A stretch of DNA of 15,027 bases from Acidobacteriaceae bacterium (GTDB lineage: Bacteria; Acidobacteriota; Terriglobia; Terriglobales; Acidobacteriaceae): the NCBI GenBank assembly GCA_003139975.1, contig PLHN01000107.1, forward strand, positions 1 to 15,027, written 5' to 3'. The position numbers and the translations under genes were made by a program. Shown piece after piece: positions 1,362 through 10,785 of this stretch (position 1 is the stretch's first letter; each line of letters begins with the position of its first letter). The notes under the pieces were generated by a model. That model had not been told where the DNA came from, ran no database searches, and saw only the letters and a program-made list of their open reading frames with translations.

Positions 1362-1661
1362 TTACTTCCTATCCTTCCAATAACCCGGCCTGCGGCTCCC
1401 GTGCGCAACCGCAAAGACCACTACCTCGGCAATCATCTCCCGATAAATCAAGCTGAACGGAAATTGGTGGAGGGCATATCTTCTGAAATCGCCGAAGTAG
1501 AACGGCCACCGCTGCGGTGCTCGTTGAATCGTCCGTCCGGCCTGCTTTACGGCATTTTGAAATTGCTTGGCTGCAGTCGGGCTCCGCTCCCGATACCACG
1601 CCAGCGCCGCCAAATATTCCTGCTCGGCCTCGGGATGGAGTCGCAGCGGCTTATGAGCCAT
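1362..1661 (-). CDS. RelE/ParE-family toxin
   Basis: This 99-aa protein has the length and layout of ParE-type toxins. The N-terminal helix starts at a Glu-Tyr pair and continues LAALAWYRERSPTAAKQF. A basic strand region contains RRYALHQFPFSLIYRE, and the end AVAHGSRRPGYWKDR is the C-terminal AVAH..RRPGYW signature of the family. Such toxins act in the cytoplasm on DNA gyrase (ParE) or ribosome-bound mRNA (RelE); the sequence alone does not say which. It starts 6 nt after the antitoxin stop, so the pair forms an operon with the antitoxin first. No strong ribosome-binding site precedes the ATG, which fits translational coupling to the antitoxin. Confidence 0.88.
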   Translation of the reverse strand: MAHKPLRLHPEAEQEYLAALAWYRERSPTAAKQFQNAVKQAGRTIQRAPQRWPFYFGDFRRYALHQFPFSLIYREMIAEVVVFAVAHGSRRPGYWKDRK

Positions 1662-1667
1662 CGAGGA

Positions 1668-1901
1668 TTATTGATCCAACAGCGTCTGGCCCTTCTTAAT
1701 CGCCGATTCCCACGAGACAGTCTTTACTTCACCCGACTGCACTTCCTTAAAACGGCGAGCGACTTCCTGTTGCCAGGCGGTGTCAATATCGAGATCGTGC
1801 GCTACTTCAAGGCTGGCGATCAGGTTGCCCGCCAACTCCGCGCGTTCGTTGTCGGGCAGCGATAGCGCCCTCTGCAATAATTCTTGGGCAGGACCAGTCA
1901 T
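1668..1901 (-). CDS. Antitoxin, addiction-module component (TIGR02574-like)
   Basis: This 77-aa acidic protein has the pattern LLQRALSLPDNERAELAGNL near the N-terminus and a later WQQEVARRFKEVQSGEVKTV. This matches the small addiction-module antidote family that pairs with ParE/RelE toxins, neutralising the toxin by binding it and often repressing the shared promoter. The gene lies directly upstream of the toxin with a 6-nt gap. The ATG is preceded by CTGTCT and a perfect TATAAT rather than a Shine-Dalgarno sequence, suggesting a leaderless message. The DNA just upstream contains a broken repeat and an insertion-sequence-like end, a typical mobile setting for such modules. Confidence 0.87.
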   Translation of the reverse strand: MTGPAQELLQRALSLPDNERAELAGNLIASLEVAHDLDIDTAWQQEVARRFKEVQSGEVKTVSWESAIKKGQTLLDQ

Positions 1902-2074: not shown

Positions 2075-2180
2075 TCTCGGCGGTGAAAAAGGGTCCGATC
2101 TCAAAAACCTCACAAACTCCCTGTAACCACCCTCACAGACACTGCACCACAACCTGTGCAATCCTCGATTCTGAACTGCG

Positions 2181-2398
2181 CCCTCCCCCTCGGCGCCCAT
2201 AACTAGAAAAACAACATGAATATTCCGGAAATTCCGGATTTTGTCGCCGATTTATCCGGCGTCGCAACCTCAAAAAACCGGCCAAAATCCACATTCATGG
2301 CCACTAAGTCGAATGCTTCGAAGACTTTACATTTATCTATCTTGTAATGAATAAGTTAGGCAATTCCGAGGGGAGGGGGGAGGGTTATTTTTCTAGTT
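2181..2398. other. AT-rich structured element with interleaved inverted repeats
   Basis: AACTAGAAAAACAAC (2201-2215) faces GTTATTTTTCTAGTT (2384-2398), which is 14/15 complementary. Between them are nested arms CATGAAT/ATTCATG (2215-2221, 2293-2299), GGATTTTG/CAAAATCC (2236-2243, 2283-2290) and CGCCG/CGGCG (2245-2249, 2257-2261), plus a tandem 9-mer ATTCCGGAA/ATTCCGGAT (2222-2239). A second long-range pair, CCCTCCCCCTCGG (2181-2193) with CCGAGGGGAGGG (2366-2377), is interleaved with the first rather than nested, a pseudoknot-like order. No flanking target duplication was seen. It could be a structured RNA, a MITE-like element, or a long leader of the gene at 2491. Confidence 0.5.
2216..2347 (+). 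CDS. Possible 43-aa small ORF inside the structured element
   Basis: An ATG at 2216 opens a frame to TAA at 2345, beginning MNIPEIPDFVADLSGVATSK. The tandem 9-mer in the DNA codes for the IPE-IPD repeat. There is no Shine-Dalgarno sequence before the ATG and the start lies within an inverted-repeat arm, so this may be chance. It is listed because it spans most of the AT-rich element and ends before the purine tract. Confidence 0.15.
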   Translation: MNIPEIPDFVADLSGVATSKNRPKSTFMATKSNASKTLHLSIL

Positions 2399-2490
2399 AG
2401 CTCGCCGCGCCTCGCAATGCACCATCATTCGCCCATACCAGCACCAAACGTGACTCCCACAAGCATGGTTCACAAAAAGGAGCAATCATA

Positions 2491-2964
2491 ATGTCATCAT
2501 CTTCTTCCACTCCATCCAGGAAATACCCTTACGGATGTTGTCAAATGCGAAACGCCAGTGGCGATCCCTGCAGAATGCCGGCCCTCCATGGCGAACGGTT
2601 TTGCCACTATCACAAACTCATGGGCAAAACTCCCATTCCGGCCGGCGATGACTTCCTCCCCTACAATCACATCTACCTTCCACGGCTCGAAGACGCCGCT
2701 TCCATCCAGGTCGCAATTTCCGAAGTCTGCGAACTGATGTTGCACCGCCGCATCGAGCCCAAAGAGGCTTCCGCGCTCTTCTATGCCATGCAGGTCGCTT
2801 CCCAGAATCTGGGGCCCGTCAACCCCGATCCCAACGCGAACGCATCCCAGCCCTTGCCGCCCGGAACCATCCAGGCATGCGCCGCCCAGCCTGGGCGCCG
2901 CCGTCGCGGTCGTCCCCGCAAGTCAGCTGCTCAACCTGTCCCTATCGGCAATTTAAGGGGATGA
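2491..2964 (+). CDS. Small Cys/His-motif protein with C-terminal AT-hook, unknown function
   Basis: This 157-aa protein has a good ribosome-binding site (AAGGAG, 2477-2482, 8 nt before ATG). Near residues 16-40 it has CCQMRNASGDPCRMPALHGE followed by RFCHYH, i.e. Cys-x-x-x-x-x-x-G-x-x-C...C-x-x-H. This resembles short zinc-binding modules of the 'C...SG..C..PA..G..FC..H' kind. A middle helical segment (LPRLEDAASIQVAISEVCEL, then RRIEPKEASALFYAMQVASQ) follows a Pro/Tyr-rich linker. The C-terminal RRRRGRPRK is a classic AT-hook (GRP core) that binds the minor groove of AT-rich DNA. I associate similar proteins with Acidobacteria genomes, often in many copies, but know of no assigned function. 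The AT-rich structured element directly upstream could be its own target. Confidence 0.85.
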   Translation: MSSSSSTPSRKYPYGCCQMRNASGDPCRMPALHGERFCHYHKLMGKTPIPAGDDFLPYNHIYLPRLEDAASIQVAISEVCELMLHRRIEPKEASALFYAMQVASQNLGPVNPDPNANASQPLPPGTIQACAAQPGRRRRGRPRKSAAQPVPIGNLRG

Positions 2965-10709: not shown

Positions 10710-10785
10710 GGGCCCGTAGCTCAACGGTTAGAGCAGCAGACTCATAATCTGTTGGTTCCTGGTTCAAATCCAGGCGGGCCCACCA
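10710..10785 (+). tRNA. tRNA with anticodon CAU (tRNA-Ile2 or elongator tRNA-Met)
   Basis: A complete 76-nt cloverleaf. The acceptor stem GGGCCCG/CGGGCCC is perfect. The D-arm stem is GCTC/GAGC with loop AACGGTTA. The anticodon arm is GCAGA/TCTGT with loop CTCATAA (anticodon CAT at 10743-10745). The T-arm is CCTGG/CCAGG with loop TTCAAAT, the discriminator is A, and CCA is encoded (10783-10785). It is not an initiator tRNA, because position 1 pairs normally with 72. The 8-nt D-loop, AGCAG after the D-arm, and C4-G69/C5-G68 in the acceptor stem match E. coli tRNA-Ile2 better than its elongator Met tRNA, so the CAU may be modified to lysidine by TilS and decode AUA. Confidence 0.96.

Follow-up and report, generated by a model that had tools for sequence, protein, structure and literature searches.

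A putative diverged member of a dispersed Terriglobales element family upstream of a Cys/His zinc-finger gene

Neisserial Correia elements are modular repeats dispersed between genes. Pneumococcal BOX and RUP are likewise modular, dispersed intergenic repeats, as described in the available part of PMC3049150. Leaders with boxA are known from rRNA operons, where NusB/S10 antitermination takes place (available parts of PMC4807359 and PMC5725501). Modular dispersed repeats and boxA leaders are the known systems to which the element reported here may be related by analogy.

The window is the whole stretch of 15,027 nt that was analysed, from contig PLHN01000107.1 of an Acidobacteriaceae bacterium (assembly GCA_003139975.1, forward strand). 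A preliminary description, made from its letters, had singled out an AT-rich stretch with two interleaved pairs of inverted arms (A and B) upstream of a gene for a putative DNA-binding protein. Comparison with related genomes suggests that positions 2104-2399 are a diverged member of a dispersed Terriglobales element family, with the following features.

2104-2399, plus strand: whole element, by sequence a probable diverged copy of the dispersed Terriglobales family; it shares 72% identity with C421:1038-1331 (E 5e-31 in the reciprocal comparisons), and pieces related to it lie upstream of protein homologues.
2110-2137, plus strand: promoter-like 5' block with two TCACA sites (2110-2114 and 2133-2137), read from the sequence, from leader pieces of other genomes (84-87% over 37-43 nt) and from the leader consensus.
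2157-2162, plus strand: candidate -10 hexamer TGCAAT, 19 nt past the second TCACA, proposed for the window copy from its sequence and the family spacing.
2181-2193, plus strand: arm A, C-rich, pairing with the G tract in the window copy only and not conserved in C421.
2200-2215, plus strand: arm B, roughly at the boxA position of full copies by comparison with these; a clear boxA is gone here, and the relation to boxA is presumptive.
2304-2330, plus strand: R1 unit CTAAGTC...GACTTTAC, part of 2303-2362, where model R1 has its best and sole window match, a weak one with 4.1 bits (E 0.76 for 15 kb).
2331-2362, plus strand: degenerate R2-like stretch, inside the same weak R1 match and aligned with C421.
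2370-2384, plus strand: G tract GGGGAGGGGGGAGGG, a conserved family feature by sequence and alignments.
2384-2399, plus strand: arm B', where the family tail follows the G tract (alignment; tails of other copies).
2477-2482, plus strand: ribosome-binding-site-like AAGGAG before the gene; the 14-22 nt that surround it and extend to the start codon have matches before the genes of several homologues (22/22 in L004, 21/21 in L006).
2491-2964, plus strand: Cys/His zinc-finger gene for a 157-aa protein with C-x9-C-x10-C-x2-H, a helical stretch and a basic GRRRRGRPRK tail.

Full copies of the family run in the order two TCACA sites, -10-like hexamer, hairpin leader, boxA-like GCTCTTTGACAA, units R1, R2 and R3, G tract and tail. 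Set beside them the window copy appears worn: R1 is recognisable, R2 is degenerate, R3 and boxA are not clear and the G tract is kept. Its TGCAAT, at 19 nt, is also a weaker candidate than GACAAT, which the family has at 21 nt. At the gathering score, Rfam matched a tRNA alone in the window and nothing in 10 loci with element copies. The window holds a tRNA-Met gene at 10710-10785 (plus strand) and a ParE-type toxin gene at 1362-1661 (minus strand; Pfam PF05016, E 2e-8); judged by eye, the stretch behind the latter (about 1665-1900, minus strand) may encode an antitoxin.

The family was recognised by comparing the upstream regions, read to a length of at most 450 nt, of 30 homologues of the protein encoded at 2491-2964, two of which had almost no upstream sequence. 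These regions had two blocks in common: on the 5' side one that carries CATCACA sites, and on the 3' side a module in which TAAGTC-type units precede a G tract. The pattern of last unit plus G tract had 96 matches in 20 of the 24 genomes of the genus, and the reversed pattern had none. Model R1 of the 3' module (R1-R2-R3 and G tract) was built from alignment A1 with 27 of 30 references, the poor 3'-module copies L021, L029 and L065 being left out. It matched 22 of the 24 genus genomes, with at least 2 to at least 103 matches each, while G016 and G020 were empty. At most 150 candidates were scored per genome, and the counts are therefore lower bounds, in which tandem arrays are counted several times. 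More than 50 matches were found in six of the 24 genomes, and G002 was the richest (at least 103). Across the class, 37 of 250 genomes had matches, 34 of these within the same family; absence in this sample refers to a scan under stricter filters, in which 14 candidates per genome were scored.

Neither the leader model nor model R2 matched the window copy at E 1. Its closest homologue, C421:1038-1331 of the same genome (72% identity, E 4.6e-31), was the only close one found and was matched by neither the leader model nor model R1. What links the window copy to the family, as we propose, is C421 together with intermediates that the models recognise. Leader pieces in G015 (L035), in G007 (L008) and upstream of a G006 homologue (L004) match the 5' part of the window copy with 84-87% identity over 37-43 nt. 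Of these, L035 and L004 match model R1 (E 4e-7 and 0.002). L008 and L007 give weak R1 matches (E 0.003 and 0.02, respectively) together with R2 matches, and L006, L009 and L025, which lie upstream of close homologues, are matched by both models. By eye, the C421 element (locus L002) is flanked by the 3' end of a permease-like gene on one side and by a partial second copy of that end on the other (840-990 and 1340-1460).

Leaders of full copies were collected through their TCACA and boxA motifs, so that the conservation of these motifs is by construction; the -10 hexamer was not a selection criterion. Among 60 references six were a second reading of the same site, and L035, L063 and L097 were left out, which gave 51 rows (alignment A4). 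The aligned leaders consist of TTTTTTCATCACA, about 16 nt, CATCACAGAC, 18 nt, GACAAT and about 90 nt ending in GCTCTTTGACAA. Over offsets 8-44 from the second TCACA, the hexamer at 21 nt was the best fit to TATAAT in the 51 leaders (3.47 of 6; next 2.82 at 24). A TGTGA-N6-TCACA site with the second TCACA as its 3' half, and a -10 at such a distance, constitutes class II activator geometry, in which the centre of the activator dyad lies near -41.5 relative to the start. The 21-nt spacing would thus be that of a class II CRP/FNR-type promoter, if the second TCACA is the 3' half-site. The CRP-like palindrome is loose in its 5' half, with 0-1 mismatches in 10 of 35 copies, 2 mismatches in 10 and 3-4 mismatches in 15. 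A perfect CRP palindrome was discarded as a family feature, being present in part of the copies only.

Between hexamer and boxA, many single-sequence folds gave the hairpin GGGGCAG...CCGTCT/AGACGG...CTGCCCC. The tested hairpin was drawn by hand from the folds of the same copies, so the test leans towards them; with this bias, 75.2% of cells paired, compared with 33-46% with slid partners (alignment A5, 41 copies after 10 of the 51 were left out). Its covariation score was 0.134 as against 0.109±0.008 in shuffled alignments, above all 500 shuffles. Changes on both sides occurred in 30 cells (17.1±3.2 expected from shuffling), again above all 500 shuffles, and two slid versions reached 32. Two of the five measures did not exceed the shuffles. 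We regard the leader hairpin as moderately supported. As for the boxA-like sequence, three family genomes (G161, G165 and G235) have GATCTTTGACAA at a distance of 151-153 nt ahead of 16S. It differs by one mismatch from GCTCTTTGACAA, which we read as boxA for that reason. The comparison uses these family rrn leaders; within the genus, 16S was found only in part (G016).

In 18 of 20 fetched leader places an R1 match followed closely on the same strand; the other two stop at contig ends 4 and 30 nt behind the leader. The leader model matched 18 of the 24 genus genomes. R1 matches were present and leader matches absent in G011, G014 and G022, and in G161 and G235 the R arrays stood behind different upstream sequence. 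Because the sequence upstream of the array varies in these cases, the R array with its G tract is the constant part. In G265 the order was similar in other letters: 9 of 14 copies had a boxA with no more than 2 mismatches, and in 3 of 14 TATTCT was picked out at 21 nt from TCACN/TCATA. Many R1 units hold a short palindrome (e.g. TATTCCGGAATA), which would suit protein-binding DNA. RNAalifold gave no consensus structure for the R-module alignment and no pairs for the leader alignment.

Several copies depart from the common layout. At L215 (1143-1407) the entire R1-R2-R3-G-tract unit stands twice in tandem after one leader. By eye, L216 (923-1078) carries an insert of 40-nt size with GGTACTGTCC...GGACACTACC ends in the R2-R3 spacer, flanked by two GAATTTTC repeats. 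Longer tandem R arrays occur at L052 and L070 in G002, some with a perfect inverted repeat of the AAGTCTTT/AAAGACTT type.

Homologues of the protein encoded at 2491-2964 were found in 22 of 41 related genomes, with up to 6 matches per genome. There were 286 homologues in a protein collection; among the 120 listed, the named ones were hypothetical proteins, a few from Terriglobales. C-x9-C-x10-C-x2-H is invariant in 22 aligned members, a spacing that we take to equal that of plant WRC. Against Pfam and NCBIfam (including zf-primase, WRC and HGG_STG), the window protein stayed below every curated cut-off. Judged by E-values only, zf-primase matched 18 of the 22 members (best E 0.0014) and WRC 6 of 22 (best E 0.055), and there was an HGG_STG match at E 0.028. 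Among solved structures, MCM10 zinc fingers, which bind DNA, came closest to the finger, both in sequence (E 0.017) and in fold (Foldseek probability 0.84, E 1.2). The fold matches serve as a lead only, given the low quality of the protein model (mean pLDDT 64.4, pTM 0.28). Besides the finger, the window protein has two predicted helices and a basic tail. Since the finger is MCM10-like and is accompanied by these helices and this tail, binding of nucleic acid by the Cys/His protein is plausible.

A similar element upstream of the homologues, which the preliminary description would have led one to expect, was found as a same-strand R1 match (E 0.01) in 22 of 37 Cys/His loci, this being the number with usable upstream sequence after two of the first 30 were left out for lacking it. 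At L011, L013, L016, L018 and L027 we saw by eye another block upstream of the Cys/His gene, common to part of the protein family and composed of TTGTCAA..., GATATATTT..., and then, a short way ahead of the gene, a GCGCGG-type hairpin and a T run.

The protein and the element also occur together across genomes. Three genus genomes are without the protein, and these (G016, G020 and G023, the latter two about 75% complete) had 0, 0 and 2 elements, while the other genomes had at least 7 to at least 103 (Fisher p 5e-4, with the split at 3 elements chosen after the counts were seen). The class sample included 58 genomes of the family, of which 33 had both, 1 the element only, 6 the protein only and 18 neither. 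The protein was thus present in 33 of the 34 genomes with the element and in 6 of the 24 without it (Fisher p 4.9e-9). Stratification by genus gave p 2.4e-5, kinship being handled in this statistic at genus level only. The co-occurrence might arise simply because the gene and the element make up one unit.

Dispersal, the order and spacing of parts, the leader hairpin (with moderate support), the resemblance of boxA to family rrn leaders, and the linkage and co-occurrence with the protein can be read from the sequences; transcription, antitermination, binding, autoregulation and titration are what we infer from them. We propose, with a probability of about 0.4, that the element is an activator-driven, boxA-antiterminated untranslated unit at whose R units the Cys/His protein binds, and that the window copy is the 5' region of a Cys/His gene. 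An activator would start transcription, and NusB/S10 on boxA would render the polymerase Rho-resistant on the untranslated RNA. The polymerase would then read through the R units and the G tract into the downstream DNA, where the Cys/His gene lies in a minority of copies. The protein would bind the R units, as DNA or RNA, and so control its own gene, and the many free element copies would be further sites for it. This combination of activator start, antiterminated untranslated RNA and R units as protein sites is the most economical reading, in which every functional step is a presumption. The wider proposition that each genome has tens of self-contained, activator-driven, antiterminated untranslated units, whose R units a dedicated Cys/His family recognises either in DNA or in nascent RNA, is rather unlikely by our estimate. 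In that wider view the protein family could in addition be required for the spread or maintenance of the elements, as is suggested by their presence and absence running in parallel within several genera. The earlier suggestion of a structured RNA with a partner protein is retained for the family as a hairpin in the leader together with boxA, both largely lost from the window copy.

The placement of copies bears on two other explanations. We used 61 copies from six genomes, for which the previous called gene mostly lay 200-500 nt before R1 and the next gene was close; 8 copies were set aside because the simple gene caller put an ORF over them. The next gene was on the same strand in 23 of 53 cases and on the opposite strand in 30, and a plain cis-operator of the next gene was rejected on this basis for the family as a whole. 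Such indifference to orientation would suit a selfish, non-autonomous mobile repeat with an outward promoter, moved by an enzyme left unspecified, with the Cys/His gene as a passenger of some copies, the free copies as deletion products and the protein not acting on the element. We consider this doubtful but a serious possibility. The richest genome has its at least 103 matches, and many of the best 60 within-genome pairs (G008 and G021) start near TTTTCATCACA and stop in the G tract or tail. L203 and L209 are split by insertions behind which the element resumes (by eye, the L203 insert has a transposase-like ORF). In the window, element and Cys/His gene are upstream of an arginase gene, next to which (within 1.5 kb) the Cys/His gene was found in 0 of 20 relatives. 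Among these relatives, G009 has an R array upstream of its arginase gene on the same strand and G002 has two R arrays on the other side of it. The best 60 pairs, however, are 71-97% identical, so that a burst of fresh copies was not seen. Neither terminal inverted repeats nor a target duplication were recognised (in the other copies by eye on the best 60 pairs); pair B of the window could pass as inverted ends, yet it is not kept in C421. The earlier comparison with a MITE holds for dispersal. Moreover, a selfish repeat would need a reason to keep promoter, hairpin and boxA in order, and within genera the presence of the protein goes with that of the element. An ordinary regulated 5' region, that is, an activator promoter and boxA leader shared as a regulon by Cys/His genes and other neighbours, would account for the promoter geometry and for the same-strand elements before 22 of 37 Cys/His genes. 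We think it improbable, as more than half of the next genes (30/53) point the other way and boxA is unusual for a coding leader.

Two further explanations seem to us most improbable. A REP-like element of a Y1 (RAYT/TIRYT) transposase might be considered because acidobacterial TIRYTs with repeat families have been published (available part of PMC3733652) and Y1 transposases occurred in 19 of the 20 genomes searched. The distribution over these 20 genomes led us to reject it, as the Y1 genes do not follow the element: they are present in G016, G020 and G023 (0, 0 and 2 elements) and were not found in G009 (at least 56 elements, 83% complete). The other explanation is a conserved pseudoknot RNA formed by the interleaved arms, as the preliminary description had envisaged. 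An inverted-repeat search recovered both complementary pairs in the window. Pair B joins 2200-2215 with 2384-2399 (94% complementary) and scored 12, compared with a maximum of 11 in 400 dinucleotide shuffles of the region (0/400), a test that is favourable because the region was picked for having arms. Pair A joins 2181-2193 with 2366-2378 (85%), or 2181-2189 with 2376-2384 in an alternative register; here a C tract faces a G tract, the registers overlap, and arm A is of low complexity. The window stretch folded as RNA better than most shuffles (z -2.24, 2/200 as good), and the AT-rich dip described before was borne out (GC 0.46 against about 0.53-0.61 in the preceding 2 kb). At the thresholds of the inverted-pair and tandem searches, the stretch had no further inverted pair and no tandem 9-mer. 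In the C421 copy, by contrast, the G tract is kept and CGTGCTTCG replaces the C-rich arm in the alignment, no long-range arms scoring above 6 were found, and the fold was no better than shuffles (z +1.62, 192/200 as good). The arms are therefore not conserved in the close homologue compared, and we dropped the conserved pseudoknot; at most, a pseudoknot would be peculiar to the window copy.

Our preferred reading of the element as an antiterminated, protein-associated unit would have consequences beyond this locus. Acidobacteria are among the commonest soil bacteria, and the element is abundant in six of the 24 genus genomes. If it is transcribed and antiterminated, its copies would represent a large set of non-rRNA untranslated transcripts that use an rRNA antitermination signal, and transcription from them would enter neighbouring genes or run against them. 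The association with a single zinc-finger family offers a directly testable partner. In the open-access literature we found no description of the repeat, or of the combination of the element, its spread in the family and its association with a zinc finger.

Compared with rrn boxA leaders, the element has a similar, putatively untranslated leader in which a candidate hairpin precedes a boxA-like sequence. It differs in that it does not stand before rRNA, occurs in tens of scattered copies and continues after boxA with R units and a G tract. With BOX, RUP and Correia elements it shares many intergenic copies, a modular build, promoter-like or transcribed parts and either orientation. Unlike them it has a putative promoter, a candidate hairpin, a boxA-like site and a triple unit, no terminal inverted repeats were seen, and it co-occurs with a protein family that is often encoded behind it. 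REP/RAYT and TIRYT repeats resemble it as scattered repeats tied to a repeat-flanked gene family, according to the available part of PMC3733652. Their partner is another one, Y1 genes do not follow the present element, and its length is about 300 bp or more as against 20-40 bp. On the protein side, the MCM10/zf-primase, WRC and HGG_STG CCCH fingers are alike in the finger, and the window protein has a different C-terminal part.
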